This document shows positions 865 through 63,561 of a stretch of DNA of 64,000 nucleotides, piece by piece. The stretch is from Periplaneta americana. Taxonomy: Eukaryota > Arthropoda > Insecta > Blattodea > Blattidae. Each line of letters opens with the position of its first letter. The stretch's first letter is position 1. Made by a program: the position numbers and the translations under genes. The DNA lies in assembly GCF_040183065.1 (NCBI RefSeq), contig NC_091118.1, positions 205,301,686-205,365,685 on the forward strand, written 5' to 3'. Under the pieces are notes generated by a model. The model saw only the letters and a program-made list of their open reading frames with translations. It had not been told where the DNA came from and ran no database searches.

Positions 865-1466
865 TAATGTGTGTATAAGATACGTTCACTTCTTATTGCA
901 TAATATGTTGCAGAAATAATTACAAAACTGTGTTATTTTAATGTGAACGGAGTTTTACATGTTAACATAACCTGTTTGCATCAACATTTTAAGTTTGGAA
1001 TGGAAGCTATTTTGAGATTTAATAAAGAATTATTTATATTGTGATTTTAATTTAGCACATCTATCTTCCTTACTTGTAGGTAGAAAATTTACCACAGTCC
1101 CTCCTATGAAATTAGTCTAGGTACGTACGGTTGTGTGTTATTTCATCTGGTAGGTTAGATAAATAGAATTAAATACGACCCAGTATAGTACGGAACAAAT
1201 AAATAAAACAATTAAATTGTTATTCAATGTAATGTGTGCATAAGTTCCATTTATTTGTTGTATAATGTAGCAGGATTATAAAACTGTTATTTTTATGTGA
1301 AGAGAATTCAACATGTTAACATAACCTATTTGCGTCAACATTTTAAGTTGAGAACGAAAGCTATTTTGAGATTTAATAAAGAAGAATATATTTAGGATAA
1401 ACTTCAGAACACGGTTATCTTCCTTACTTAAAGGTAGAAAATTCACCACACTCCCTCCTATGAAAT
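865..1466. repeat. Two-copy tandem repeat (period about 354-365 bp)
   Basis: Copy 1 at 865-1112 and copy 2 at 1230-1466 share long matching stretches: TAATGTGTG(T/C)ATAAG at the start, CATGTTAACATAACCT, TCAACATTTTAAGTT, GCTATTTTGAGATTTAATAA and CCCTCCTATGAAAT at the end. Small indels and substitutions give an estimated identity of roughly 80-85 percent. No protein is recognisable; origin unknown. Confidence 0.75.
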
Positions 1467-1488
1467 GTAGATACGGTTATATTACTTA

Positions 1489-1656
1489 CTAGCGCTGAGG
1501 TATAGTTCCGGTAATTTCTGAACTGAAAACAGTTGAATTTATTTTTTGTGGAGATGCATTTAATCCTCTAAGCAGGGCATAATAAAAGCCTGAACTAACC
1601 GAACTAATTAGTATATGCAAGGTGTATGAATACGAAGGGAACTACCTCAGCGCTAG
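1489..1656. mobile_element. Small MITE with inverted ends CTAGCGCTGAGGTA
   Basis: Left end CTAGCGCTGAGGTATAGTTC and right end GGGAACTACCTCAGCGCTAG are inverted copies apart from a 2-base indel. The 168-bp body has no ORF. A diverged half-copy (ACTAGGGCTAAGGTAGTTCC and following bases) is at 37107-37160. No clear target-site duplication, so superfamily not assigned. Confidence 0.65.
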
Positions 1657-3419
1657 TTTAAGCCTGGTAACATATTAAACTAATCAGACTGGAGTACCGT
1701 ATGAAACGAATAAATACAATTGAAGTGTAGACAAATTGCATTCACAAGTTATACGTAGCGTTATGCTTAATTATGATGCATAATTGCGAATATAGAAATA
1801 AGGAGAGTACTGATAGAGTAAACATAACCTATATTTTCAACACATCAAAATACGCGTGCGATGCAACTGAAAATTGTTGAAACGTGCTTAAATGAATGTG
1901 CAAGAATTTCGTAATGAAGTGAGCATGCTTTATTTCAATTAATTACAATACTAGATACTGTAACAGTAATGAAAACTATAAGGTACAATTTTTCACAATA
2001 TACTACGTATATGTATCTCGCTTTTAGTTCAAATTGTGTATATTATCAAACGTCGTATTATTTATAATGTAGGTTATTTACACATAAGAAGGGCGCAATA
2101 ATTTAAATTTAATAAAACAAATACGGTAAACTAACAATAATGGATTAGACAAGAGTAACATCAGTAACGCTGCACTTAGGCCTAATCATAATTTACTTTA
2201 CATCCCAGCCAATGTTTCACTTTTACGTGTATATTATTACACATATTTACTGTTTATAACACCAAAAATTCACTTAACCACATAAGGGCGCAATGTTTAA
2301 TCGAAATAAAGGCAGTTATTACACATACGAACTTTGCCTGCAATAACGTAATTTTTACACCAAAAATAATATTATACCTTACGTTGCATGTGAATTGTGT
2401 CTCAAGAGTCTCACAATCACTGTTTAAAATTTTACTGACGCAATTACACTGCATTTCAGAGATATATATGTTGTTTTTCATGTACTGCAACTAATTGATA
2501 TGGTTGAAACACCGCCCTTCGCGATCAGCTGTTAAGCGAGTCACGTGGTCTGCCTTACAGCCTGTATAGATCACGGCAGTGAATGGTGGCGTTGCTGTCT
2601 GTTTTGACGCATGTATGTAGGCACGCCGAGGGGGGAGAGGTGCGAGCCGATGGAAGTACTGTCTCCTCCAAGAAGATGAACAAATGAGGACATCGCTGTG
2701 GAAATAAAGAATGTAGCAAGAGAAAAATTCGAAGCTAATTAAACGCGGAACATAGGTTTACGAATGAAATAATAATACCGTGCGATACAAAGACACGCAT
2801 TCACATGTAATGGAACAAACTAAAGTCGTAATGTAACTATCACAACGCAAGACTGATTCTATCGATGTCATTTCTCTTCCGACTGTACTCTTGAATATCA
2901 TTCAAGTTATCTCGTGACCTTTCCTGTCGCCCGCTCTTCCTTATCGCAGTGTTTGATTCGCATTCCTTCCGTCGGTAATCAGTACTTGCGAGACCTATAC
3001 CTATTACTCTTTTTTTTTTCACAATATTATCTGATCAATGTGGTACCTTGCTATCTGATTTGATCCCTGAAAATTACCGATATACTACTAGTTGGAAATG
3101 AGATCAAAATTGGAAGGATTTTATACCTATATGTGAATTACAATTCAACGCGAAATTGAAGAAGGATAAATCACTTTAATTGCAACAAACATAAGGACGG
3201 GAAAATCTCGGCTTTCCTAGAAAGATATGATGACCATAAAGAAGAAGAATCCTATTTATAATGAGAAAATAGAAAATGACTGTTCCACGAAAATCATAGC
3301 TGATAGCTTGTCTCTACATTCCAAATGAACATCCAAAATAGGATAGTACCTTAAGGCAACCACAATAAAACGTCATTTGAGTCGTCCATAATGTTTGCGG
3401 TTACCTCTGATTCTGGTTC
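1657..3419. other. Non-coding AT-rich stretch with weak internal repeats
   Basis: Two related pieces starting CACATAAG..GGGCGCAAT occur near 2083 and 2277. Near 2540-2590 a sequence resembles, in inverted orientation, the stretch at 733-785. No convincing gene; short open frames here have no recognisable features. Confidence 0.5.
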
Positions 3420-3690
3420 TGGCTGAAATTATCAGGCAGTACATCTCACTTGACGATATGTCAGAGGAAGAACATTGTTTGTGTACATTTGATGTCAGAT
3501 TAGTATAAAATGTTACTATTTTTTATAGTTAACATTGTGTGCAATGTAGGGGAAAGGAACTGGCCACCATACTCCAGTATCTCCTGACTTAGTTGTCTTA
3601 TGAGTGATGTCATATTGGTATCACTTACGAGGTTCCAACATGTCTTCGCACAGCTGACTGATCGATATAAGTGGGCGTGACAGACACGCG
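3420..3690 (-). repeat. Dispersed repeat family copy (family A)
   Basis: In the minus direction it reads GAACCTCGTAAGTGATACCA, CTAAGTCAGGAGATACTGGA and a TTCCTTTCCCC..ATTGCA segment; the same ordered blocks recur at 35440-35580 and 59795-60060. Probably a short retroposon, but I see no promoter boxes. Confidence 0.6.
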
Positions 3691-4516
3691 AGTTACTCAT
3701 TTATTCATGACGCAATCGAATTGCGCAACAAGATGACAAAGGTTAGATAAATAAGATGAACTCATCAGATTCAATGGTGCGGCTGCTAACCTAATCACGC
3801 TAGGAAGACGGATGTTTAAAAATTAAAATGATGGGCCAATTGGTACCTATGAAGATGAGTCGAGGAAAAATGACACAAATAACATCCGACTAGAACTATA
3901 GGCTGGCAGTACCTAATACTTTGTAAACATTCAATTAATGTGAAATTTGAATGTGTGATATCAGTACGCCGAAGTTTCTGGACGAGATTAGAGTGTGTTT
4001 GAAAATGGTTTGTCGCGCTCAAACCTCCTGACGTTTCGCAAGCGCCAGTAACATGCGAGCGCGACGTTGTCACAACTAATTGCACTCTCCATCTGTCTCT
4101 CAGTGGCAGTAGTTTTAAAACTGTACAGCGCGAGCCTTTACCCGAGTTTATATCAGTTTCTGTAGGCCTAATAGTTTTATTTTCATTAGGGTTAATAAAT
4201 TTGTCGAATAGCATAAAGGTGGAGTGTGATAAATTAAATTGAGTGATAGGCATAATTTGAAATAGCCCCATTATATTATATTGAAAGAGGTGGAGAATGC
4301 TCTCTTCCCCTTAAGATTTTTCTTCTTTCCCCTGCAGTTTTTTACTCAAATACATGAGAGAGTTTTCTTCTGGCAGAAGCGAAATGGGAATTATATATTT
4401 CAATAAAGAAAAATGCTGATATATACTGTATATATGCCAAAATTAGTATACCCGCCTAATACGCGGTTTACACGAGGTCCCTTGCACAACGTCTTATCGG
4501 AGTTTTACTGTATTAA

Positions 4517-21498: not shown

Positions 21499-21739
21499 TC
21501 ACTGCGTAGTGGCAGTAAGAGGTGCGGGTTCGAGTCGTATGCTCTTGTTGATCTGCTGCACCAGTGCTGACTTGAGCTCCTTCATCTTCTGTCGCCATTC
21601 GATCCAGCGAGCGACCTCGGGGTTGTTCCGATCACCGCGTCCTTCTAGCTGCTGATAGTAAGCCTCGCGAAGGATGCGGAATGCTTGCAGATTGCTGTAA
21701 GGCAGCTGCGTCACTGGGTCGAAGTAGCGAGCTTGGAGC
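21499..21739 (-). CDS. Vps72: Vps72 coding exon 7 (C-terminal, YL1_C)
   Basis: Acceptor TTTGCTTGCAG. Encodes [35 protein letters not shown] and ends [11 protein letters not shown] before TGA at 21501-21499. The R-Y-x-D-P-x-T-x-x-P-Y pattern is the YL1_C signature. The next 180 bp upstream of the acceptor lead straight into a 5'-truncated LINE. Confidence 0.96.
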
Positions 21740-24700: not shown

Positions 24701-27700
24701 TTATATAAGGTACAAAGCTATTCATTTTATTTCCAGGTTCAGTCATTCCAGTTTTTACGAATGTTATATTTTTACTATTTTTAAAACTTTATATCGTATA
24801 TTAAAAATGAAATGACTCTTGTCAACTTTTGTTATTAGAATCAATTTAGAAGATCAGTATCATTTTACAGATAAAATATTGTTTGAATAAAATTTATTAG
24901 GCTATTATTGCAGAAAATAAAGAAAAGGTTCTGTTACGGACATACATTCAGGCAGATTTCCTGAAAGAGCATATAATAAAACTGGAAAGAAGAATCAGTA
25001 CCTGGTGATGGGACAGATGTTCTTCGCTGGTGCCTTGGGTTGGGTCTGTGGGAACGCACTCCTGTACACCTGCTCATCAAGGAATGTGATGAACGTCCTC
25101 TCACACCGAGTGTCATTTGAAGTACTTCCCACATCCTTGTTTTTATCTTCTTCTTTCTTACTCTCTTCAGCATCTGTCTGGTTCTCTTTTCCATTGCTAT
25201 AAACATTTTTTAAAAAGCTAACAAAAATGTCAACATTAACTTCAACTTTAAAACAGACTGAGTTCTATAAGAAACTAATATATAAGATACTGATAATAAA
25301 ATTAACACAATCAATAGACATAATTTAACTTGGTATCAAGATGATGACACATACTTTCTCACTGTATTTACAGAACAAATGAGTTCGTTTTATCATGTTA
25401 TGAATTACTATTACATTTTTATTACGTCATACTGCTTTTGACCAAAAAAAATTGTACAGAACAATGTGTTTCAACTAAGCATAGCTGCTTATCCTACAGT
25501 TTTTATCACCTCCCTAGCACTTGTTTCTTTGTTTGCCAACATTATATTTTCAATAATTGTACTTTCTACTGTAAATTGTTCACGTTTATTTCATCATCCT
25601 TAATTAAAATTTTTCTATCATTTAGGTTATGTTATAGCTTCTGCTGTATGAGATTATGAATAGTTGCGTATCAGAGATTGTTTAATACAGTACAATCCCT
25701 TGTAACCAGCACCCAAATAACCGGCAATACCAAAATAAGGGCACTTTTGGCTGGGCCAAAAAAAATGTTTAAATCTGCCATATTGCCACAGTCTGGGCCA
25801 TCAGTTTTGCCACATTAGGGAGTTTACACAAACTTACATTTTCAGCGAGTATTCGAACCTAAAATTGGTGTATTATTTGTGTTGTGTTTTAATAAAGAAA
25901 ATCCACACAGTTTTTATGTTTATTTAATTATGTTCGGGCCGCCAGTGTTGCCACATTAGGAAGTTCGCACGAACTTTCATTTTCAGTGAATATTCGAACC
26001 TAAAATTGCGTATTATTTGTGTTGTGTGATGTGTTTTAATAAGGAAAATCCACACAGTTTTTATGTTTATTCAGTTATGAGCAAGTGATAGAGAAATAAG
26101 CTTCACATGGCTGCAGTTGGCACCATGAAATACGAACTTTATTTTTATATATATACCTGTATTTAATCAATTATCCGACAAAATCTCGTATCCGGAACTA
26201 GCCTGGTCCCTTTGGTGCTGGATAAGAGGGATTCCATTGTATATATTGATAACTTGAAGTAGAATGCAGTTTTAATAATAATGAAACTGAATCAACAAAG
26301 CCTTCTTAACTAGAATTGTTTACAGAGTTCAATGAAGATATTATAGTTGGCACAACTGGTAACAAGAGAACAGCTAATCATGACACACTACTGCCACCTA
26401 GGAGAATATTTGTCATGAAGAGATGGTACAATAATACATTTTAAAAACAGTTTAGTTTTTGTAACTCAATATTTTATTGTATTAGATTACTTTATTTCTT
26501 CTAATCGTGTGATAGTCAACTAAATCACACTCGAGTTTTGATTTTCTCTAGATAAATCAAAACCTCCATAGTCCATAATCGTACCTATCTTTAAGAAGGG
26601 GGACAAGACTAACTGTGGTAACTTTCGAGGAATATCACTTTTGTTGATGTCGTACAAAATTTTGTCGAATATCCTTTTGAAAAGATTAACTCCATATATG
26701 TAGATGAAATTATTGGGTATCATCAGTGTGGTTTCAGGTGTAATAGATCGACTATTGATCAGATTTTTTGTATTCAACAGATATTGGAGAAAAAATGGGA
26801 GTATAAGGGTATAGTACATCAGTTATTCATAGATTTCAAAAAGGCATATGACTCGGTTAAGAGAGAAGTTTTATATAATATTCTTATTGAATTTGGTATT
26901 CCCAAGAAACTAGTTCGATTAATTAAAATGTGTCTTAGTGAAACTTACAGCAGAGTCCGTATAGGCCAGTTTCTATATGATGCTTTTCCAATTTACTGTG
27001 GGCTAAAGCAGAGAGATGCACTATCACCTTTACTTTTTAACTTCACTCTAGAATATGCCATTAGGAAAGTTCAGGATAACACAGAGGGTTTGGAATTGAA
27101 CGGGTTACATCAGCTTCTTGTCTATGTGGATGACGTGAATATGTTAGGAGAAAATCCACAAACGATTAGGGAAAACATGGGAATTTTACTGGAAGCAAGT
27201 AAAGAGATAGGTTTGGAAGTAAATCCCGAAGAGACAAAGTATATGATTATGTCTCGTGATCAGAATATTGTACGAAATGGAACTATAAAAGTTGGAGATT
27301 TATCCTTCGAAGAGGTGGAAAAATTCAAATATCTTGGAGCAACAGTAACAAATATAAATGACACTCGGGAGGAATAAATATGGGAAATGCCTGTTATTAT
27401 TCGTTTGAGAAGCTTTTATCATCCAGTCTGCTGTCAAAAAAGCTGAAAGTAGAATTTATAAAACAGTTATATTACCGGTTGTTCTGTATGGCTGTGAAAC
27501 TTGGACTCTCACTTTGAGAGAGGAACAGAGATTAAGGGTTTTTGAGAATAAGGTTCTTAGGAAAATATTTGGGGCTAAGAGGGATGAAGTTACAGGAGAA
27601 TGGAGAAAGTTTCACAACGCAGAGCTGCACGCATTGCATCCTTCACCTGACATAATTAGGAACATTAAATCCAGACGTTTGAGATGGGCAGGGCATGTAG

Positions 27701-30700
27701 CACATATGGGCGAATCCAGAAATGCATATAGAGTGTTAGTTGGGAGACCAGAGGGGAAAAGACCTTTGGGGAGGCCGAGACGTAGATGAGAAGATAATAT
27801 TAAAATGGATTTGATGGAGGTGGGATATGATGGTAGAGACTGCATTAATCTTGCTCAGGATAGGGACCAATGGCGGGCTTATGTGAGAGCGGCAATGAAC
27901 CTCCGGATTCCTTAAAGTAAATCAAAACCTCTAGTGAGAGTATTATAGATAATCCCTTTTTAGCTTATCTTCTTAAACTAACATTCAAAAGACATAAATA
28001 AATGAAGTAATTTATTTATAGTGGCAGAGTTAAGTCCAAAGGGCCTTCTCTTATACTCTACCAGATAATGTACTATGCCGTAGAACATAAGAAATGCCAA
28101 AACTAGAGTTTATCTTCTCCTTTGCATGCACAGTTTATGACTGGGGCTCAGTTCCCACTACCTTTTGTCAGTGGGGTCTGCAGGCTCCTGCTTCTCCCTC
28201 TCGTCGTCTCCCTCGTCCACTGTGATCGGACTCTCATGCTGGTCCTGATTCATCACCTCGACCAGAGGCATGGCCACGGAGTGATAGCGTATCATTGGGC
28301 CCTGGAACGTCTTCTTAACTATCCTCGTCTTCTTCTTTTCCATTTCTAATTTCTGGTATTTCTCTGCGTGCCACAAGTAAGAACACATTACTAATTTGAA
28401 TTCTACACTTGGCAGTCTGTGCTGCTCTAAGTACGATTCCAGAGAAAAAATGGTCTACCTGAATTTCCTAAGATCTACATTCAATGCAGTTATATTGTCA
28501 GACTCCAAAGCAGCTATTCTATCAATAGTCTCTAAACACACACATTCATCTCAAACAGCAGAAATAACTAAAATGCTTTCTCAATTAATATCACTCAATA
28601 AAAGAATTGTATTCCAATGGATACCATTCCATTGTGGAATCCTGGGAAACGAGAATGCGGATGCTTTAGCAAAGAAGGGCAGCACTGCTACTTACAGATC
28701 TGTTACTAAATCTACGTATGTAGATTTAATAAATCATGTAGACTTCAACAAACAAAATTTGATAACACAATCTCAAGGGAAAAAATGGAACTCTCTGCAT
28801 CATAATCCACAGTGAATTCCCGATTTACCACGAAAATCGTCTGTAACTGCATTTAGATTGGCAACAGGCCATGATTGTCTGGCCAAACACCTGCATAGAA
28901 TTGGAATATATCAGTCCCCTAACTGCCCATTGTGCAACTCAAACCAAGAAATGCATTCAGAACACCTCAAAATCTGTGCTTCAGTGGCTGACCATGATAA
29001 TATCTTTGAAAAATATTGGAGTGCAAGAGGTCAAATGACTTTATTGTCAAACGCCTGGCATTAGAAAACAACAACAACAACATTCAATGCATTGCACATG
29101 CACAGTGGTTCAAAACAGTGGTACATATGAGATCACTTTGGCAGTTATTGAAATTCAGTTTACTTTGATTGTTGTCATACCTGAAAGGTATACCGAATTT
29201 TGCACATCTCTGCCCCTATTACTTATTTGTTCGATTCCACAATCTTAATCGCTATCATAGCTTAAATACTCGGTCACAACATGGTAACACGCTATAAATT
29301 CCACTCCACACATCATCTCTGTATCAATGAAAATTAAACATAACTGTAACATAAACACAGAAGTTTGCGCCCTAGCTACCAAATGGGATCATTCACAATG
29401 ATTCACATAAGCATTGACATAAACATTACCATAAGACGTTAACATGAAAGTTAATGTTTCATTTTCATGCTTACGTGATTTGCAAACAGAACACAATTGT
29501 GGAATGCTGCAGTATACGACAGACTATGAGGAAATGGCGTCGTTGTTATGTTTGCTGTTATGTTTATGTTCCCATGAGCCTGTTGCTACTTCTCGTCACT
29601 GGAATTATATGCCACCCGAAGTCAAAGGCTACCGAAATTTTATTTTTTTTAAATATAAATTAGAAGAGTATCTTATGATGAGTTGCCAGACATAATGCAT
29701 TGCAAATATTTAATGCAATATAGCACACTGTGTTTATTTTTATTTTTTGTTTCTTATTTTTATTGTATATACTTAATTCAATTGTCTTTAAAATGTTATT
29801 ATGTAAATAGTATTTTCTTTTAATTTAATGTTCATATGTTTACTGCAGTGTTCATTTTTGTGTACTCTTTATTCAAATATCTGTTTATGATTTTATTATG
29901 TAAATCATATTTATTTATCACTTAAAACCAATATGTATTCCACTACGTTCGTTTTTCTTTTATTCTTTCTTGATTGTGTACATTTTTTTCAATTGTCGGT
30001 TTCTTGTTTAATTAGGCCTATGTGAATCCTATTTTCTTATAATTTAATACAAATATGTACAGTAAAAGCCCGATATAACGTGGTTGTTGGGGGACATATT
30101 TTACCCCGCATTATAGCTCAACCGCGACATACCAGAAGTGATTATAGTCCATGTGTTAATGAAATGACAAGTCACATGGAGATGGGTAAAGCTGGTAATT
30201 TAATACACTATACCTCTATACTTACTTAATTACTGGCTTTTAAGGAACCCGGAGGTTCATTGCCGCCCTCACATAAGCCCGCCATCGGTCCCTATCCTGA
30301 GCAAGATTAATCCATTCTCTATCATCATATCCCACCTCCCTCAAATCCATTTTAATATTATCTTCCCATCTACGTCTCGGCCTCCCTAAAGGTCTTTTTC
30401 CCTCCGGCCTCCCAAGTAACACTTTATATGCATTTCTGGATTCGCCCATACGTGCTACATGCCCTGCCCATCTCAAACGTCTGGATTTAATGTTCCTAAT
30501 TATGTCAGGTGAAGAATACAATGCCTGCAGTTCTGTGTTGTGTAACTTCCTCCATTCTCCTGTAACTTCATCCCTCTTAGCCCCAAATATTTTCCTAAGC
30601 ACCTTATTCTCAAACACCCTTAATCTCTGTCCCTCTCTCAAAGTGTGAGTCCAAGTTTCACAACCATACAGAACAACCGGTAATATAACTGTTTTAAAAT

Positions 30701-33700
30701 TCTAACTTTCAGATTTTTCGACAGGTGACTGGATGATAAAAGTTTCTCAACCGAATAATAGCAGGCATTTCCCATATTTATTCTGTGTTTAATTTCCTAC
30801 CGAGTATCATTTATATTTGTTACTGTTGCTCCCAGATATTTGAACTTCTCCACCTCTTCAAAAGATAAATTTCCAATTTTTATATTTTACTATACCTCTA
30901 TACATGAATTTAAATAATGTAATACGTACCATACTATAATATAAACTAGACACTCACCAGTTATGCAGTTTATTCCATAAAACTTGTTATTGTATTGTTT
31001 TTAGCAATAGTTCATTTCACTATTTTACTGTTTATAAACTATCCTGATTTTACACCGACTTAAAAAAGTCTTCAAGTTTTGTTAAATGATACAGAAGACA
31101 ATTACTACCATCAAATTACTTGTGATATAAAGTCTATGTTTAAGTATAATGACTGTTGTATGAAAAAGCAGAAATCAGGTGATGCAATAGTGCAGCTGAA
31201 GGCACACACCATTCTCATACAAATGCTTCACTAAATTTCTCTAAATATTGCACTGTCATTGGTTCGCATGATAGTGAAAGCCTTAAGAGAAATATATTTC
31301 TAGACGATTTTATATCGAATTCGAAGATATTACATTTTTACGATAAAAAATGGAGCATTTTAATAAAAAAAAAAACAAATTATTCCAGAAATCCCACGTA
31401 AATTTGCAGTAGCAAAATTCAGACTGCTTACAGAAAACGATTATTTGGCCAAACACTTGAGTAAAGCCCGGTTCAGACGGTGCGTGTTTCTGTGATGGAT
31501 TCCAAGGTGGCTGCGCGGATGGGTAGCCTGCGTGGTCACTCGCCGGAAGTAATGTGCTCTGGTGGCTCCGTGGATGGCTAGCTTGCTGGATTTCGAGGGT
31601 AGGTTCCTTGCTATTTTTCGGGATAGTTTGCAGGCTGGAAACCAAAGGTGATCATATAATATCACCACTGAAACCATGTCGCCATGTTCGTTGTTTTCCA
31701 ACTAAACCTGTTTTTTTCTATATTCTTTAGTTTCTAAGAAACAACAATTAAATACCGGACTTTAGCTGTTTTGCACTTATGGCTTAATTACTTTATTACG
31801 ACATTTACTACTGTTAATGTAGGACTTTAGTTGTTTTCCACTCACGGTTTAGTTTCTTTTTGACCATGAGTGTTGGCAACAGATGAAACAGCAGATGATT
31901 TTCCAATTTGAACTAGAGTTGGGCAACACGATTCTTTTTTAGAAGTCGATTCCAACGATTCAATCATACATTACGAATCGATTCTAACGATTCGTTCACG
32001 ATTCTTCTCAGTCTGTGATTCCAACTATTCTTTTGAATCGTCAACGAGTTCACGATTCTTCCTACTCTGCGATTCCAACGATTTGTCAACGAACGACTTA
32101 GAGGACACTTTCCTTTGCAAACCACGCGTAGAACAAAAACGTTCTACATCTCTCTCATAGATGGCATAAGAGGCGAGACATTGGATTGTCTCTTTCTCAT
32201 TGGCTGGAACCATTCAACATGACCTCCATTAGTCTACAAAATTACCCAAGATAATGTTTCTAAATTATAATTTATCAGCTGAACCTTATTGTGAAGTACA
32301 TTTGTTGCATTACCGGTACATCTCTATTTAACTATGCAAATTTCAGGTTCGTGTTCATTATTTTTCACACTTTACAAATGCAGTATTTTGATTTCACTGT
32401 CGTTCGGGAGCATTTGGCACGGTTCGGAAATGTCCGCTGACAGGTTACATCAAACAAGTAAATAGAATCGTGGGTTACGATACCATGTCAATTCGTTACT
32501 ATTCTTTTGAACGACGATTCGTTACGATTCTTTTGAACGACGATTCGTTGATACCACGAATCGATTCTTACGATTCTTTATTATTAGTCGTTCGAATGAA
32601 CGATTCGTTCACGAATCGACCCAACTCTAATTTGAACTGTGAAAAGAGCCAGCTCCGTGTGAACAACTACCATCACTGTAGCCAACACGGGAGCCAGCAA
32701 GTGACCACGCAGGGCAGTCATCAGAGCAGCCACCTTGGAATCCATCACAGAAACTAGCACCGTCTGAACCAGGCTTAAAATAGGAATTTACACGAATCCT
32801 AATTGTCCTCTATGCAACAAAGAAGAAGAAATGGCTGAAGATCATCTACAAACCTGTAAAGTTCTACCTGATGGATCCACCACAGAGAAATATTGGAGAG
32901 CAAGAACGCTAATGGCTTCGTTGCCAAAGCCCGGCATTAGATAACAACAACAACAACATTTTTACGAGCTCACAATAAAATTGTTTTTGACCTAAACTTC
33001 ACAGCCTACATATCATGTTAAATGAAGCTTATAACAGAGGCATGTGAACACACAAGCCACTGAATTTATTTACCTAGGGACTTCAGATTGTCTTGCTCGG
33101 TGATTTTGGCTTCCTCCAGCAACTCCTCTTGAGTTGGTCGCCATTCGTCCTGAGTTCGCATTCGACGGCCTCTACGCTTGCGACCCTCTTCAGTGCGTTC
33201 CTTGAGACGTTGCAGGGTGGCTGCAGACTTTGCTGCCGTTGAGCGTCTTATCGACTTGCGTTCTAATAAACAAGCATAAGTACATTCCATTGAGAACATC
33301 AAACTTCCTAATATCAGCATTTTGTGTACCATCCTTCGTACGCCTAAAAACTAATATTATTACATTGATACTAACCAAATGTATCTACAGATATAACTTT
33401 TTTTCGAGGCTTTCTGGGTTTGACTTCAGCAGGTTTTTCCATCTTCTGTAACACGACAACTGGTTCCTGCAATATAAAGGTAAACTTTCAGTAAATCATT
33501 TCACTATAATTATATTCATTATAGGGATGAGTCTCTGTTTCTAAATTTTGATATATTTTTTGAAGACAACATATTTTTCGATCATAAACATTTTTAAAGT
33601 TATAAAATGTCACATTAGAATTGGTAAGGTCTGCTTTTTGTTATTAAAGTTATTTATGGATGAGCACCATCTGTTGCTATCAATACCACGTCATCAGACA

Positions 33701-33870
33701 TCTCTGTACTCAAGTTCTTTCTCAATAGCCATGGCCCGCTCATGGAATTCGCTGCCGCTGGAAATCAGGGGTAGTCTTAGTCCTCAGTTGTTTAAAATTA
33801 GGTTGTTTAGAAATATTTTAAATGCACAGAATTAGTTTTTTTAGGTATAATTTTTATTTATTATTATTAC

Positions 33871-33916
<46 letters not shown>

Positions 33917-35155
33917 TTACACAGTCATTACTTTCTTTTTCCATTAACACTTATATCTAGGTAATTGTCATTGTCTCAGTGTAACCCGCGCTGTGCTGAT
34001 CATACTAATTGTACTATTCCTTTAATTGTGAGATTATATTCATATGTATTAATTCTTTTTTTTTTTAAGTTAATACTGTATACTAGAATATATTTTCCTG
34101 TTTATGATTATGTATTCAGTCTCTTTTTTTATTATTATATATATTTTTTTATTATTGTTATTTTAAAGTTAATACTGATCGTGTATATGTATTCAATCTC
34201 TCTTTTTACTTAATTATGTTTATTATTATTTTTAAGTTAATATTTGTATACCGGTATGTATTTTTCTGTATGTGATTTGATCCTGGTTGAGTGGAAAAGA
34301 AGGCCTGATGGCCTTAACTCTGCCAGGGAAAATTATATTATTATTATTATTATTATTAGTATCTAATGTGAATTTTTTAAAGTGGTATGTGGTCATATTT
34401 ATAATTTACAAAAAAAAATATTTTTGTAGTTTGTTTTCTACAAGTAAGCAACATTAGGTTTACTTTATTAAGTAGATTATTTTAAATATTATTAATTGTA
34501 ATTATTTTATGTAATTAGGTTACCACTGCGACAGGGTGTTTGCCCATTTGCAGTGTAAATAAATACATACATGCAGGATATAAAAATATACCACAGTTTA
34601 GGTTAAGAAAGACAGTTAATAGACATAATATTTACAAGTTAAATTTTGTAACAGTCTTCCACAAACAGTAACAGAATTATCTTTAAATACACATTTTTTA
34701 AATTAATTTCCAAATGGTTAAAAACAAAAGATTATACTGACAAATGAATTTTTGTTGTATAAGATTTCAGCCATTGAATTGTTTGAAAATTCAAATTATA
34801 ATGTTTCTATGAATTATTGGACAATGCCTATTTCTTATTTATATATTTTATTAATGGTATAAATAAATCTTATCTTAAAAAAGAGAAACAGAAATATGTA
34901 AAACTGTGTGAAAACGAAAGGATGATATAAATTTCACTTTACTTTGTATGCCTTAGTCATAATTTTTCTTTTTTTCTTCGGCTCCCCATCTTCCTCTTCT
35001 GATATTGGCTCATCATTCTCTTCAATGCTGAAATCCGAATCCACTTCATCCTCTCCTTCTTCTTCAGACCTGTGAAGCAAACAGTGTGCTGTGTGTAAGC
35101 AAATTACCAAACTTTTTTCTAAACTTATTATAATCTATGAAAAACTATTTTGAGC

Positions 35156-35193
<38 letters not shown>

Positions 35194-36666
35194 AGCTACA
35201 GCTGCAATTATGTGAATTCTTGGAAATAATTTACTTTCTTTCATTTCTCAAATTCACTATGCTATTACAATACAGGGCTTCCATTTCAAAACTTTCCAAA
35301 TCAAGTAACTATTTACTGCAATTTAATTTAAACAAAAAACATGTTAATTTAGATATTGAGGGGAAATTTTAAAACCAGTGTTAACTGCATTTTAGGTTTC
35401 ACCTCCCTCATTGTCCCCCACCTCCATTTGAAATTTCAAATTGCACCCCTATATGATTGTTTAGTCAACTGTCCGAAGACAGGTTCGAACCTCATAAATG
35501 ACAACAATAAGGTATCACTCATGAGGCAACTAAGCTAGGAGGTAATGGGGTAAGGTGGACCCCTACATTATTATACTTAAATTTGAAAGCGTATTCAATT
35601 GTTTATACATTTCATTCATTTGTTTCCACTGCCTTTTGTTTTCTATCATTGCCTGGCAATCTGAATTGTTATCATTGATTAGAGCTGAATAGAATAAAGC
35701 TATAAAGACTATTGTTGGTTATAGGTTATTTCAGATAGTAACACAAACTAATATTAAGGAACATTATAGTTATGTATTATAAAGTTATTCTTTAAAAATT
35801 TTAAACAGGATAGAGGATTATGAAGGTCGAACTTTGAATTTACGTTATTTATGTATATGGTTTTGATAATATGGCAATGCTATGTAGAGGAGTTCCGAAA
35901 TAACAATGGAGCACATTTTGAACATTAAATTTCGTCAATTTATTTAATTAATTTAGAAAAATATCCAAATAAATTGTGTTTTCATTCCATAACAAACTGA
36001 ATGACAATAACAATTCAGGTTGCCAGGTGACGATAGAAAACAAAAGATGTGAAAACAAATGATTGAGATGTGTATAAACAACTGAATACTCTTTCAAATT
36101 TAAGTATCATGAGATATTCGTGCCAGTTCAAATTTCATAGGAGATGGCGTGGGCTAAAATCTAAAATGTAATTAAAACTGTTTTTAAACTTCTCCATAAA
36201 TATCTAAATTTACGTGTTTTTTTGTTTAAAATAAATTTTATTTACTTAAATAGTTATTTAGACTAGGAAGTTTTGGATTGAAAGCCTGGTATATTGTTGA
36301 AATATTATTGTCTCTTTTGATTTCAAAATATGATTCGGATATTTAATCAAGAATAAAAATCATATAAGGTTACCTTCGATTACTAGTTCTTTGTATTGTT
36401 TTTTTATATTACCTGCCTGAATTAGCCCTATACATGTGTTAAAAATAAAATTAGTTTCTATAGCTGAGTCATAGACAATTGGAAGTCTATTCGCAGTACA
36501 TTGTTAAGGAAATTCTCTATACTAACTGATAATCATCATCATTCTCAATTTCACTGAAGCCGCCGTAGGTTGTTTTATAAAAATCATCCTCCTCCTCTTC
36601 ATCTAGAAGTTTGGACATCCGGTTTCCTGCATTGCTACGTCTGTCACGAGTTGTTGCAAGAGCCAT
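21499..36666 (-). CDS. Vps72: Vps72/YL-1, H2A.Z chaperone subunit of SWR1/SRCAP and Tip60 complexes (complete CDS, 7 exons)
   Basis: Nuclear histone-variant chaperone that binds H2A.Z-H2B and helps chromatin remodellers deposit it. Coding exons on the minus strand: 36666-36527, 35069-34943, 33466-33376, 33262-33074, 28363-28162, 25196-25002, 21739-21499 (TGA at 21501-21499). Exon lengths 140, 127, 91, 189, 202, 195 and 241 sum to 1185, i.e. 394 residues, against about 364 in human VPS72. Recognisable in order: N-terminal [20 protein letters not shown] and DEVDSDF acidic H2A.Z-binding segments, KKKRK basic stretch and [16 protein letters not shown] with [13 protein letters not shown] and NLKSLEKY (YL1 domain), [15 protein letters not shown], and the C-terminal YL1_C signature [17 protein letters not shown]. 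All junctions are GT-AG and phases agree. The introns carry many transposons without disturbing the exons. Family identity is secure. Confidence 0.96.
21917..23155 (+). pseudogene. MNLRVP-family LINE, RT and C-terminal part, in 3' flank of Vps72 intron 6
   Basis: Reverse-transcriptase blocks in order: [40 protein letters not shown], a frameshift, [15 protein letters not shown] (intact YADD box), [19 protein letters not shown], then an in-frame stop near 22507, [47 protein letters not shown] and MNLRVP. No RNase H. 5'-truncated; 3' end AAAAGCCAGTAAGTAAGTA. Best copy in the window but broken by one frameshift and one stop. Confidence 0.9.
23664..23905 (-). mobile_element. tRNA-derived SINE (family 1)
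   Basis: Same order as 8187-8447: T-rich (tail) start, GGTTATTTTACGACGCTTTA, AATGAGTCCGGGGTCCAACA, inverse B box GGAATCAAACCCGGGCC, inverse A-box CGTGGCCAGACGCGC. Located in Vps72 intron 6. Confidence 0.88.
23941..24463. repeat. Segment bounded by 15-bp inverted repeats
   Basis: TTTATGCTCGACCAT at 23941-23955 and its inverse ATGGTCGAGCATAAA at 24449-24463. The interior has a repeated CAGCCAATGAC motif near 24040 and 24071. May be a non-autonomous element. Confidence 0.45.
24464..25001. other. Vps72 intron 6, no further features
   Basis: AT-rich intronic sequence without recognisable repeats. Confidence 0.5.
25002..25196 (-). CDS. Vps72: Vps72 coding exon 6
   Basis: Acceptor GTTTATAG, donor CCAG|GTACTG. 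Encodes a polar linker [20 protein letters not shown], then [27 protein letters not shown]. The CPITR block joins directly to the YL1_C motif in exon 7. Confidence 0.95.
25688..26239. mobile_element. Pogo/Tigger-like non-autonomous element with TA flanks
   Basis: Left CAGTACAATCCCTTGTAACC (AGCACC) and right, inverted, CAATGGAATCCCTCTTATCC (AGCACC); both flanked by TA (25686-25687, 26240-26241). The AATCCC..TTATCC..GCACC pattern is typical of pogo/Tigger ends. Contains a tandem duplication with period about 141 bp (GCCACATTAGG at 25809 and 25950). No transposase. Confidence 0.75.
26567..27918 (+). pseudogene. MNLRVP-family LINE, 1352 bp, with 13-bp target duplication
   Basis: Flanked by AAATCAAAACCTC at 26554-26566 and 27919-27931. 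Starts further upstream in the RT than the 21917 copy: [20 protein letters not shown], then [30 protein letters not shown] (G of the QGDALSP block changed to R), [13 protein letters not shown] (Ala of YADD changed to Val), a deletion near 27377, [23 protein letters not shown] then a TGA. Inactive. Lies in Vps72 intron 5. Confidence 0.92.
28162..28363 (-). CDS. Vps72: Vps72 coding exon 5
   Basis: Acceptor GGCACGCAG, donor AAAAG|GTAGTG. Encodes [32 protein letters not shown], then an acidic linker ending EPADPTDK. Follows a 4.7-kb intron that contains three LINE insertions and one four-level nested stack. Confidence 0.95.
28489..29079 (+). pseudogene. RNase H-bearing LINE 3' fragment with (CAA)n tail, 12-bp target duplication
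   Basis: Flanked by ACATTCAATGCA (28477-28488, 29080-29091). Encodes an RNase H end, [14 protein letters not shown] and [20 protein letters not shown], an in-frame stop near 28813, then [20 protein letters not shown] and a CPLC..H..C zinc-knuckle-like [20 protein letters not shown]. Tail AAAACAACAACAACAA. RNase H plus terminal CCHC is typical of I/Jockey-type LINEs. In Vps72 intron 4. Confidence 0.9.
29325..29576. mobile_element. Family-C MITE copy
   Basis: Close match to 15841-16120 with one deletion. It abuts a LINE fragment directly at 29577. Confidence 0.75.
29577..30060 (+). pseudogene. LINE 3' fragment (WNSLPPEVKG family)
   Basis: [20 protein letters not shown] and [11 protein letters not shown], stop, then a T-rich 3' UTR. 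The same protein end is encoded by 41800-42510 (minus). The R-x-W-N-x-[LM]-P motif is the C-terminal signature of Jockey/CR1-like ORF2 proteins. Confidence 0.7.
30222..30888 (-). mobile_element. MNLRVP-family LINE 3' part, 15-bp target duplication
   Basis: Perfect duplication ACTATACCTCTATAC at 30207-30221 and 30889-30903. Minus-strand reading: [14 protein letters not shown]-like region (frameshifted), then [48 protein letters not shown] and the AAGCCAGTAATTAAGTAAG tail. Confidence 0.92.
31465..32775. mobile_element. TIR element with 3-bp TAA duplication (PIF/Harbinger-like), middle layer
   Basis: Flanked by TAA (31462-31464, 32776-32778) inside the LINE. Ends AGCCCGGTTCAGACGGTGCG and, inverted, AGCCTGGTTCAGACGGTGCT; homology extends over TTTCTGTGATGGATTCCAAG and GTGGCTGC, about 55 bp. 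No transposase seen. The TAA duplication fits PIF/Harbinger; assignment is inference. Confidence 0.88.
31914..32629. mobile_element. hAT-type MITE, innermost layer, 8-bp target duplication
   Basis: Perfect duplication ATTTGAAC (31906-31913, 32630-32637). Inverted ends TAGAGTTGGGCAACACGATT and TAGAGTTGGGTCGATTCG. The subterminal regions are arrays of GATTCGTT/AACGATTC words in both orientations. 8-bp duplication and TAG..GGG ends fit hAT. No transposase. Confidence 0.92.
33074..33262 (-). CDS. Vps72: Vps72 coding exon 4
   Basis: Acceptor TTTATTAG, donor CTAG|GTAAAT. Encodes [19 protein letters not shown], a basic RKRRGRR stretch, and [20 protein letters not shown], the core YL1-domain helices. 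Starts in phase with two bases and ends with one. Confidence 0.96.
33376..33466 (-). CDS. Vps72: Vps72 coding exon 3
   Basis: Acceptor TTATATTGCAG, donor TTTG|GTTAGT. Encodes [15 protein letters not shown] then [15 protein letters not shown]. Least conserved part of the protein; accepted because phase (complete codon in, one base out) links exons 2 and 4 exactly. Confidence 0.9.
33640..34365 (+). pseudogene. LINE 3' fragment (SWNSLP type) with (ATT)n tail
   Basis: Translation [50 protein letters not shown]; 3' UTR contains an (ATT)n at 33866-33914 and ends GGCCTTAACTCTGCCAGG followed by (TTA)n. The GCCTTAACTCTGCCAGG end is shared with 41845-41880 (minus). In Vps72 intron 2. Confidence 0.75.
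34943..35069 (-). CDS. Vps72: Vps72 coding exon 2
   Basis: Acceptor GCTTCACAG, donor AAA|GTAAAG. Encodes [30 protein letters not shown] and MTKAYK. The DEVDSDF and TKAYK blocks are characteristic of YL-1. Acidic stretch followed by a basic nuclear-localisation-like run. Confidence 0.94.
35158..35191. repeat. (AAT)n microsatellite
   Basis: About 11 AAT units in Vps72 intron 1, 90 bp from exon 2. Confidence 0.9.
35440..35580 (+). repeat. Dispersed repeat family A copy
   Basis: GTCAACTGTCCGAAGACAGG, GAACCTCATAAATGACA, CACTCATGAGGCAACTAAGC, GGAGGTAATGGGGTAAGGTG: same order as in 59795-60060 and, inverted, 3420-3690. Confidence 0.65.
35581..36526. other. Vps72 intron 1, no further features
   Basis: AT-rich intronic sequence; no repeats or coding recognised. 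Confidence 0.5.
36527..36666 (-). CDS. Vps72: Vps72 coding exon 1
   Basis: Starts [20 protein letters not shown], continues through the acidic EEEEDD run and [10 protein letters not shown], ends DDDYQ with a phase-2 split before GTTAGT. Five bases upstream of the ATG is TTTATTTCACAG, a strong acceptor-like sequence, so a non-coding first exon likely lies at higher coordinates. Confidence 0.95.
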
Positions 36667-36714
36667 CTTTCCTGTGAAATAAAGATCACATATTTTAGCA
36701 TCTGACTGCACAAA

Positions 36715-36847
36715 GTCGCTACTGGTAGTTTAGTTTGTAGAGCAACTGACTATGGACTGAAAGGTCCCGGATTCAATCCCTGGTGGTGGTGGTGGGATTT
36801 GTCAAAACTTCCAGAACTTCTAAAGGGAATACCTTTACCTCTACCTT
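36715..36847 (+). mobile_element. Short tRNA-type SINE (family 2) just upstream of Vps72
   Basis: 10-bp duplication ACTGCACAAA (36705-36714, 36848-36857). A box TGGTAGTTTAGTTTGTAGAGC, B box GGATTCAATCCC, then a (TGG)n piece and the 3' end GGGAATACCTTTACC, which matches the end of the SINE at 61705-62008. It lies 44 bp from the acceptor-like site preceding the Vps72 ATG. Confidence 0.85.
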
Positions 36848-37282
36848 ACTGCACAAAATATGCTTTTTGATATAGTACGTCCTATCAGCTATTACAAGGA
36901 CCTACTTATGTAAGACTCACATCAGATTTTCATGGCTGCTATTCAGAGATCATCACATAATTATAAGGGAACAGTGATCAAATGTCAATGTCAGGGGAAA
37001 TTTAAGTAAGCCTACTAGGGGAGAATCTGCCTCACAGGTCTGTTTACAATATCCAGGTGAAGTCTGATGCAAATTGTGCAGATCAATTATACATACATCG
37101 TCGGAGAAACTAGGGCTAAGGTAGTTCCAGTGATTTCGGAAGTGAAAATCATTGAATTTTCAAGATACCGAGTTGTTGACAATCTTGCCTTCTGATACGT
37201 TGTCAGTCTGAATTTGGAGGTTAAGATCTGTAATAAGTTGTCAGTATATATTTGTGAGATCAAGATTTGTGATAGATTGTCA

Positions 37283-37390
37283 GTCTGAGTTATGTGAGGT
37301 TAGGATATACAAGTTTAAACATAAACAAGATTTGTGATAGGTTGTCAGTTATGTGAGGTTAGGATATACAAGTTTAAACATAAACATACG
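37283..37390 (+). repeat. Tandem duplication, about 63-bp period
   Basis: GTTATGTGAGGTTAGGATAT then ACAAGTTTAAACATAAACA occurs twice back to back, with GATTTGTGATAG(A/G)TTGTCAG between; earlier diverged GTTGTCAGT copies extend to 37195. Confidence 0.85.
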
Positions 37391-37639
37391 AAAAAATATA
37401 TATATAAATGTGAAAAGCATAAGAAGGGGAACATCAAAAGTATTATACTGATAGAAGTTCATCTATTTGTAGACATAATTTTCATTTCTTTAAAAGTACA
37501 CCGGAACCCATATATTTGTCAACAGTGTTACAATCCATTTACGAGCCCATGATTGTTTAGTAACAATATTTGAACGACATAATTGGACAGTCACAAAATA
37601 CATAAAATTAAAAGTATCAAGTAACTCGTTTAAACCTAC

Positions 37640-37930
37640 ACAATTACTTAGCTTGAGTGAGCAGTCCCTGCTTAGGCCTTTATTGCACGCATATCAGAAC
37701 TATGTGATTCAAAAGCATTGCCATAATAATAATACAAACCCTAGATCATAGAAGTAACTTCTATAGATACTTCTATGATCTAGGATACAAACCCTTTGTC
37801 ACAGGACATACACCCGATAAAACCGTCAGCCTTGTATTAGTTGTATTAATATGACGGTACTTTTGAATCACATAGTGGTGGCATATTTACTTTGCATAAA
37901 AGCCCTAAGTAGGAACCGGTGGAGCATAGA
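37640..37930. mobile_element. Fold-back element with embedded micro-palindrome
   Basis: Left CTATGTGATTCAAAAG (37700-37715) and right inverse CTTTTGAATCACATAG (37861-37876); matching extends outward with gaps (CTGCTTAGGCCTTTATTGCA versus inverse CTACTTAGGGCTTTTATGCA). Inside is the 44-bp palindrome at 37740-37784. Confidence 0.65.
37740..37784. repeat. Perfect 17-bp palindrome with 11-nt loop
   Basis: CCTAGATCATAGAAGTA and its exact inverse TACTTCTATGATCTAGG around ACTTCTATAGA. Flanked by ATACAAACCC on both sides, like a 10-bp target duplication. Confidence 0.9.
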
Positions 37931-38699
37931 CAAATAACACGACGCTCAATACGTAGGGAATATATATTCACAATAAAGAGAAAATAATATGTTCTCTATA
38001 CTGTGATACATCCATAGATAGTTGCTAACCACTAGGATCGCTACTATCTACTCATTCTCATTACAGACAATGCGAAATAGTACCGGCACAGTCTATTGTT
38101 CCTATAGTAACCTCACAACTGAAGCTTCGTGACTGTATATACTACACCCCAGATCACATATAGATTGATCAATTCCTATGTTAAAATCGGTTGCACTTTG
38201 AAGAGAACAACCGCCAGGATCGCCACCCGTTCGCCGTAAACGAACACGAGTTGGCAGTACAGTCGCTAATGCAATTCAAATGGGAGTTATGACGTGACTC
38301 CTTATGTAATAACTAGATGGCAGCATAGTAAACCTGACAAAAGTTGTTACCGTCAAAACATATAACGCCGAGCAATTTGGGTATAGGTGATCTAGGCTCA
38401 CACAAGGGTGGTGGTCTTTCTTCCTCAGTGTAATGACCTCGAGTATTACCTAAATTACTTTATGTAGCTAGTTAATTTGAAGTGTTTATTTTAAACTCTG
38501 ATTATTATTAAAATGGTATTTTATAAGTAAACACAGGAAGAACAAAGCGGTAAATTCAAACTGCCATACGACTACACTTCATTGAGGCAGACATCAGAAA
38601 TAGTGATTTAAGTTAGCAATGGAGAAGTACTATGAAGTAAAAAAACTGCAACAAAAACAATAGTAATGTTAACATTGTTGCTTGATTTATACCGAGTTT

Positions 38700-39080
38700 A
38701 ATATTCATTAAAGTGTTAAGGATTTATTTTTATTTACTACTGCAAAGTTAGTGATTTTCGTTTTAACATAGGGAAATTGGGAGATGTGCATTGGCTCCTC
38801 TGAACAAAGATGGCCGAATGACATAGAAAAAATGACGTCATACGTTTGCGCAGAAGAAGGGGCGTAGGAGGGTAGCAGCCATATTGTAATTGTATAGATC
38901 TCTTCGAAGAGTAATTTAAGCATTAACATTATTTTGATTTATCGTAAACATCCTACGCTATATTGTTTGGAAAGTTTAGTGAATCGTTTGTAGATATTTT
39001 ATAACTATATTGTATCGTTCCTGGTAATTGTGCGTTACGTTTTTTAAGCAAAACTATCGATTTTTTTTCTTCCCGTCTAG
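38700..39080. promoter_or_regulatory. Candidate Rab11 (possibly bidirectional) promoter region
   Basis: Between the divergent Vps72 and Rab11 start codons. It holds a perfect CRE-like palindrome TGACGTCA at 38833-38840, a YY1-like AAAGATGGC at 38806-38814 and another, GCCATATTG, at 38878-38886, plus a GC-richer patch GGGGCGTAGGAGGG near 38859. I saw no TATA box. CRE plus YY1 sites are common in TATA-less housekeeping promoters; that these sites work here is inference. Confidence 0.45.
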
Positions 39081-39108
39081 GGAATAGGGCCTAAATTCCA
39101 AGTAGAAG

Positions 39109-63561
<24,453 letters not shown>

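Follow-up and report, generated by a model that had tools for sequence, protein, structure and literature searches.

Three nested insertions, a LINE, a TIR element and a hAT MITE, in a Vps72 intron of Periplaneta americana

That transposons nest, and that such nests can serve as a relative clock, is already known. In the accessible parts of the work on TinT (transposition in transposition), nested transposons serve as such a clock, as exemplified by 1,978 nested CR1 elements of chicken (PMC2169234). The main DNA elements of the P. americana genome are Tc1-Mariner and hAT according to the available portion of its description (PMC12774602), so a hAT MITE is to be expected there. Excerpts of a study of Herves, a hAT element of Anopheles, report that its transposase binds CGATTCAT repeats near the Herves ends and that CGATTCTT did not fully compete for this transposase (PMC3143072). 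Among PIF/Harbinger elements, the 72 mJing MITEs of rice have a TAA or TTA target-site duplication (TSD) in about 67% of cases, again in the accessible text of the source (PMC6850418).

Here we describe a nest of transposons in a window of 64,000 nucleotides from P. americana (contig NC_091118.1, positions 205,301,686 to 205,365,685, forward strand), analysed together with 3.23 Gb of genome in 91 contigs. In the window, positions 31332-32967 consist of three nested insertions, a hAT MITE within a TIR element within the tail of a LINE, and all boundary pairs are present in the sequence (Table 1). As in TinT, the inner element is the younger one; the nest differs from TinT (PMC2169234, accessible in part) in being a single locus with three element classes that orders insertions and not families. 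As a nest it is ordinary and of a known kind; its contributions are a coding hAT relative and a lead towards a possible landing hot spot. It also offers a clean and sharply delimited chain of relative dates that links three transposon families in a large insect genome.

Table 1. Features of the nest and of the surrounding Vps72 gene (positions in the window)
Feature	Position	Strand	Remark
YL1_C (PF08265) match, Vps72 exon	21670-21738	-	other side of the intron; converted from genome coordinates
Left LINE target duplication ACATTTTTACGA	31332-31343		last GA occurs in the LINE too
LINE 3' piece, part 1	31344-31464	+	5'-truncated; antisense to Vps72; final 3 bases are the TAA target copy
Left TAA target copy, middle element	31462-31464		boundary of 31465-32775
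Middle TIR element (PIF/Harbinger-like MITE), first 449 bp	31465-31913	+	starts AGCCCGGTTCAGACGG; ends with the left hAT MITE target copy
Left 8-bp hAT MITE target duplication ATTTGAAC	31906-31913		
hAT MITE, 716 bp	31914-32629	+	ends TAGAGTTGGG...CCCAACTCTA
Right hAT MITE target duplication ATTTGAAC	32630-32637		
Middle TIR element, last 138 bp	32638-32775	+	ends ...CTGAACCAGGCT
Right TAA target duplication, middle element	32776-32778		
LINE 3' piece, part 2	32779-32955	+	coding end, stop, (AAC)n tail
Right LINE target duplication ACATTTTTACGA	32956-32967		
ORF with Vps72 exon (YL1, PF05764)	33069-33350	-	upstream side of the intron
ORF with YL1 (PF05764) match	36520-36729	-	

The LINE lies between the YL1 and YL1_C exons, on the plus strand and antisense to Vps72, in an intron of about 11.3 kb provided that no exon intervenes. 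The original prediction had spoken of a four-deep nest; the three insertions in the intron stand, and the fourth "layer" is the intron itself. Seating of the LINE in a further repeat was considered and rejected, as a 212-bp query of the joined intron flanks matched only the window's own two halves in a genome search that skips very common words. An Rfam search of window positions 26000-40000 returned no matches. Elsewhere in the genome, a second YL1_C match (G000:C8:176670142-176670210, plus strand, E 9.8e-4) is perhaps another YL1_C protein or a copy of Vps72.

LINEs integrate by target-primed reverse transcription, and the outer element displays a simple-repeat (AAC)n tail, a 12-bp repeat at its ends and a 5' truncation. 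By this mechanism, a 5'-truncated LINE would have been placed in the DNA of the Vps72 intron, antisense to the gene, as the first step of the history. Without its inserts the LINE piece is 298 bp long and its protein reads through, as had been claimed, the frame being continuous across the junction once the inner layers are skipped. When the joined 298-bp piece was used as a query, all 40 scored places (from 1,578 candidates) matched at 95-97% identity over 295 to 298 of 298 bases; three further rows of the search were short extra tail pieces. ACATTTTTACGA occurs on the plus strand of the window only at the two places listed in Table 1. LINE copies elsewhere read AAAGA directly before TAAAAAATGG at the window copy's start point and end in (ACA)n; the 12-bp repeat therefore shares its final GA and its initial ACA with the LINE, and the TSD measures 7-12 bp. 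Thus, of the TSDs previously described as bounded to the base (12, 3 and 8 bp), the TAA and the 8-bp ATTTGAAC are present as described, while the outer one has a true length somewhere between 7 and 12 bp. The window copy is 5'-truncated, because 25 of 30 fetched copies continue upstream alike, with CAAAGA preceding TAAAAAATGG (the other five are truncated or different there). A longer copy (L060) contains a 478-aa frame with an RNase H match (PF00075, E 9.3e-15) and, below the cut-off, a match to zf-RVT, and the window copy begins downstream of RNase H; no RVT_1 model match was found in the L060 stretch read, nor was a reverse transcriptase domain seen for the LINE. Two relatives of this LINE occur in the window itself, one at 28816-29079 (68% over 267 bp), preceded by an RNase H frame at 28381-28812, and another at 51776-51843 (81% over 70 bp).

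The middle element is 587 bp long without its insert and has AGCCYGGTTCAGACGG ends. Its terminal inverted repeats (TIRs) of 82 bp are 86.6% identical and start with AGCCYGG, and its longest stop-to-stop frame is 79 codons. Given its TSD and the uninterrupted LINE copies, we conclude that the TIR element entered a TAA of the LINE; in this second step a non-autonomous element, probably of PIF/Harbinger, was pasted into the LINE's coding tail. Of 1,697 candidates obtained with the first 449 bp of the middle element as query, 40 were scored, the best at 97% excluding the window; cutting the query at base 449 biases the result towards copies whose inserts lie at or after that base. Of 29 other fetched copies, 28 are continuous across the hAT site, the exception being L014. 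Among the 26 copies with both ends (L023 and L028, whose ends are incomplete, were left out), 12 carry TAA, 9 carry TTA and the remaining 5 have imperfect duplications.

On these TAA/TTA TSDs, the middle element is probably a PIF/Harbinger MITE. It resembles rice mJing in its 3-bp TAA/TTA TSD and its terminal inverted repeats and differs from it in the repeats themselves, which in mJing are 11 bp long and start with GGCTG (PMC6850418, from the accessible text). A further difference from PIF/Harbinger MITEs such as mJing concerns the partner transposase: a DDE_Tnp_4 (PF13359) search scored 150 places from 2,642 candidates, and in both of the two loci read the TIR ends were absent within 3 kb. 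The AGCCYGG ends are accordingly linked to no transposase, as would be the case if the element belonged to another superfamily that makes 3-bp TSDs; we consider this unlikely, since the TAA or TTA of 21 of the 26 copies is the target of PIF/Harbinger MITEs such as mJing (PMC6850418, same portion). The earlier label "Harbinger-like" is therefore retained as probable for its TSDs; no transposase partner was found in the 2 of 150 scored loci read. As a side observation, middle-element copies abut or lie within one another at G000:C15:44854539-44855697 and C4:118431709-118432438.

hAT elements generate TSDs of 8 bp, commonly nTnnnnAn. The innermost element has the 8-bp TSD of hAT MITEs, and so do its relatives: 27 other copies were compared, of which 25 are complete at both ends (L069 and L073 are incomplete and were left out of the count), and their 8-bp TSDs are exact in 22 and carry one mismatch in 3. 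Of the 22 exact TSDs, 18 have T at position 2 and 21 have A at position 7.

A coding relative of the MITE was found through the hAT dimerisation domain. The search scored 150 places from 31,016 candidates, and the flanks of 20 were read for the MITE's end. L102 alone ends in CCCAACTCTA, with seven CGATTC-type motifs beside it, and 17 others had no match to the MITE's end. In L092 and L100 the MITE's last 44 bases are matched at 84%, far from the domain and without CGATTC motifs; in the neighbourhood of L092 (L110), nothing matched the left end of the MITE. The neighbourhood of L102 (L109) contains an element of 3,023 bp (reverse strand, 1250-4272) that has the MITE's ends and the TSD CTATGCAT on both sides. 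It is 95.2% identical to the MITE over MITE bases 1-272 and 72% over the right 116 bp, and because of this low match on the right it is not the direct parent of the MITE throughout. Its 622-aa ORF, free of stops, contains zf-BED and Dimer_Tnp_hAT domains and matches the Hermes transposase with an E value of 1.6e-20. In the alignment to Hermes, the D of DSWT, the D of SDNAAN and the E of CERVFS are kept, which we take to be the catalytic D, D and E of hAT transposases. Since this coding relative shares the MITE's ends and combines an 8-bp TSD with a BED/hAT transposase ORF, the assignment of the inner element to hAT is firm, in agreement with the original prediction. Most likely, the MITE would have been mobilised by a transposase encoded in this genome by a relative with matching ends.

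The MITE is rich in one short motif. CGATTC or its complement GAATCG occurs 19 times, at MITE bases 16-157 and 552-700, whereas 1,000 composition shuffles averaged 0.29 and never exceeded 4. Of the 18 occurrences of ACGATTC in the window, where dinucleotide shuffles predict 5.1, the MITE contributes 12, and the array word noted earlier, GATTCGTT, is found in the MITE 4 times. Herves and the window MITE are alike in having repeated short motifs near both ends with the core CGATTC in common (PMC3143072, in its accessible part). The MITE is unlike Herves in that CGATTC is followed by TT, GT, CA, AA or TA; the exact Herves motif CGATTCAT is absent from the MITE and occurs once in L109. The common core suggests that the CGATTC motifs are putative transposase-binding sites.

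How did the three layers come together? The nesting alone settles which layer came first, second and third. The hAT MITE entered the middle element, as shown by its TSD and by the uninterrupted middle-element copies, and in this third step the 716-bp MITE was pasted into ATTTGAAC inside the TIR element. We are highly confident that the nest arose by three successive and independent insertions, the LINE, then the TIR element, then the hAT MITE. Had the 1.3-kb segment been native to the LINE, or the hAT-like segment native to the middle element, other copies should carry them; instead, all 40 scored LINE copies are uninterrupted and lack the segment, 28 of the 29 fetched middle-element copies lack theirs, and the hAT MITE is found elsewhere with its own 8-bp TSDs. 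For the copies examined (40 LINE and 29 middle-element), a native insert is rejected, and its probability is negligible. The nesting and relative order originally proposed for the three elements thus hold.

A second alternative is that a middle element already carrying the hAT MITE jumped into the LINE as one unit. The TSDs taken alone are compatible with such a joint arrival, and the difference in divergence between the middle and hAT layers is not significant. However, the junction between the two is spanned by the window alone (40 scored places of 2,416 candidates), and with no second compound copy among the scored places, an ancestral compound would have to have been lost or to lie among the unscored ones. 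We regard joint arrival as improbable and retain three separate insertions.

Divergence of the window copies ranks LINE above middle element above hAT MITE, which agrees with the nesting and is weak as proof. Private substitutions amount to 2.35% (7/298) in the LINE, 1.19% (7/586) in the middle element and 0.70% (5/710) in the hAT MITE; distances to consensus are 3.36%, 3.07% and 2.39%, and terminal branches 0.033, 0.019 and 0.011, respectively (L014, a partial match, was left out of the divergence set). By Fisher's test, P is 0.049 for the LINE against the hAT MITE, 0.25 for the LINE against the middle element and 0.39 for the middle element against the hAT MITE, so that the first pair alone comes near significance. 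The full order was recovered in 70% of bootstraps for private sites and in 39% for distance to consensus. Among the other retrieved copies, a biased sample in that it was drawn from the best matches to the window, the median pairwise distance is 1.35% for the LINE, 3.24% for the hAT MITE and 4.16% for the middle element. In these best-match samples the retrieved LINE copies are therefore the least diverged set, contrary to the expectation that the innermost hAT family would be the youngest. Nesting orders insertions and not families: the LINE copy is the oldest layer, yet its retrieved relatives are the least diverged.

The middle element also appears to have been entered repeatedly at one point. 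At the hAT site, L014 carries a different element of 183 bp (1950-2132), with ends CACAGTCTA...TAGACTGTG and a 7-bp duplication, TTTGAAC. A search for the L014 junction (40 scored of 2,510 candidates) gave, besides L014, two matches that extend beyond the junction by 24 and 33 bases. In L113 and L114, of which only the left junction was seen, a CACAGTC-ended sequence follows the same base, and because their interiors differ they look like separate insertions. Four middle-element copies (the window, L014, L113 and L114) are struck at one base, a count that comes from a search directed at this one junction. The landing site is ATTTGAAC followed by TGTG, at middle-element bases 442-453, and two end types meet there: the TAGAGTTGGG-ended hAT MITE with its 8-bp TSD, and CACAGTC-ended elements, for one of which a 7-bp TSD was seen.

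Ranked by TSD target preference, the site comes 12th among 580 for the hAT MITE and 28th among 581 for the CACAGTC family, the latter scored with 11 seven-base targets chosen and trimmed by eye. The site is acceptable, not outstanding, and is not singled out by the 7/8-bp preferences taken by themselves. A script that allowed shifted ends detected a 6-10 bp repeat in 13 of 20 CACAGTC copies (7 bp in four, 8 bp in four) and none in the other 7. The landing target is absent from the 22-base flanks of 20 other CACAGTC copies, which counts against a strong preference for the middle-element MITE. The site lies within an imperfect palindrome, TTTTC...GAAAA, seen by eye, and this is a possible reason for the landing choice. 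Tentatively, the 587-bp MITE might carry a landing hot spot and thus, as it spreads, provide a standard harmless docking site for later transposons, an idea that we find worth stating and somewhat doubtful. If true, the target choice of two DNA transposon families would become testable in one multicopy, near-identical target.

Other repeats accompany the nest in the window. A second insertion lies in the same intron at 30207-30903 on the opposite strand, with a minus-strand frame; its sequence features suggest the 3' piece of a LINE, and it is flanked by 15-bp repeats ACTATACCTCTATAC at 30207-30221 and 30889-30903. At 30060-30110, a stretch starting with CAGTAAAAGCCCGATATAACG presumably resembles the end of a pogo-like element. 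Further along, nearly 1 kb of ACT/ACC trinucleotide repeat occupies positions 57864-58832.
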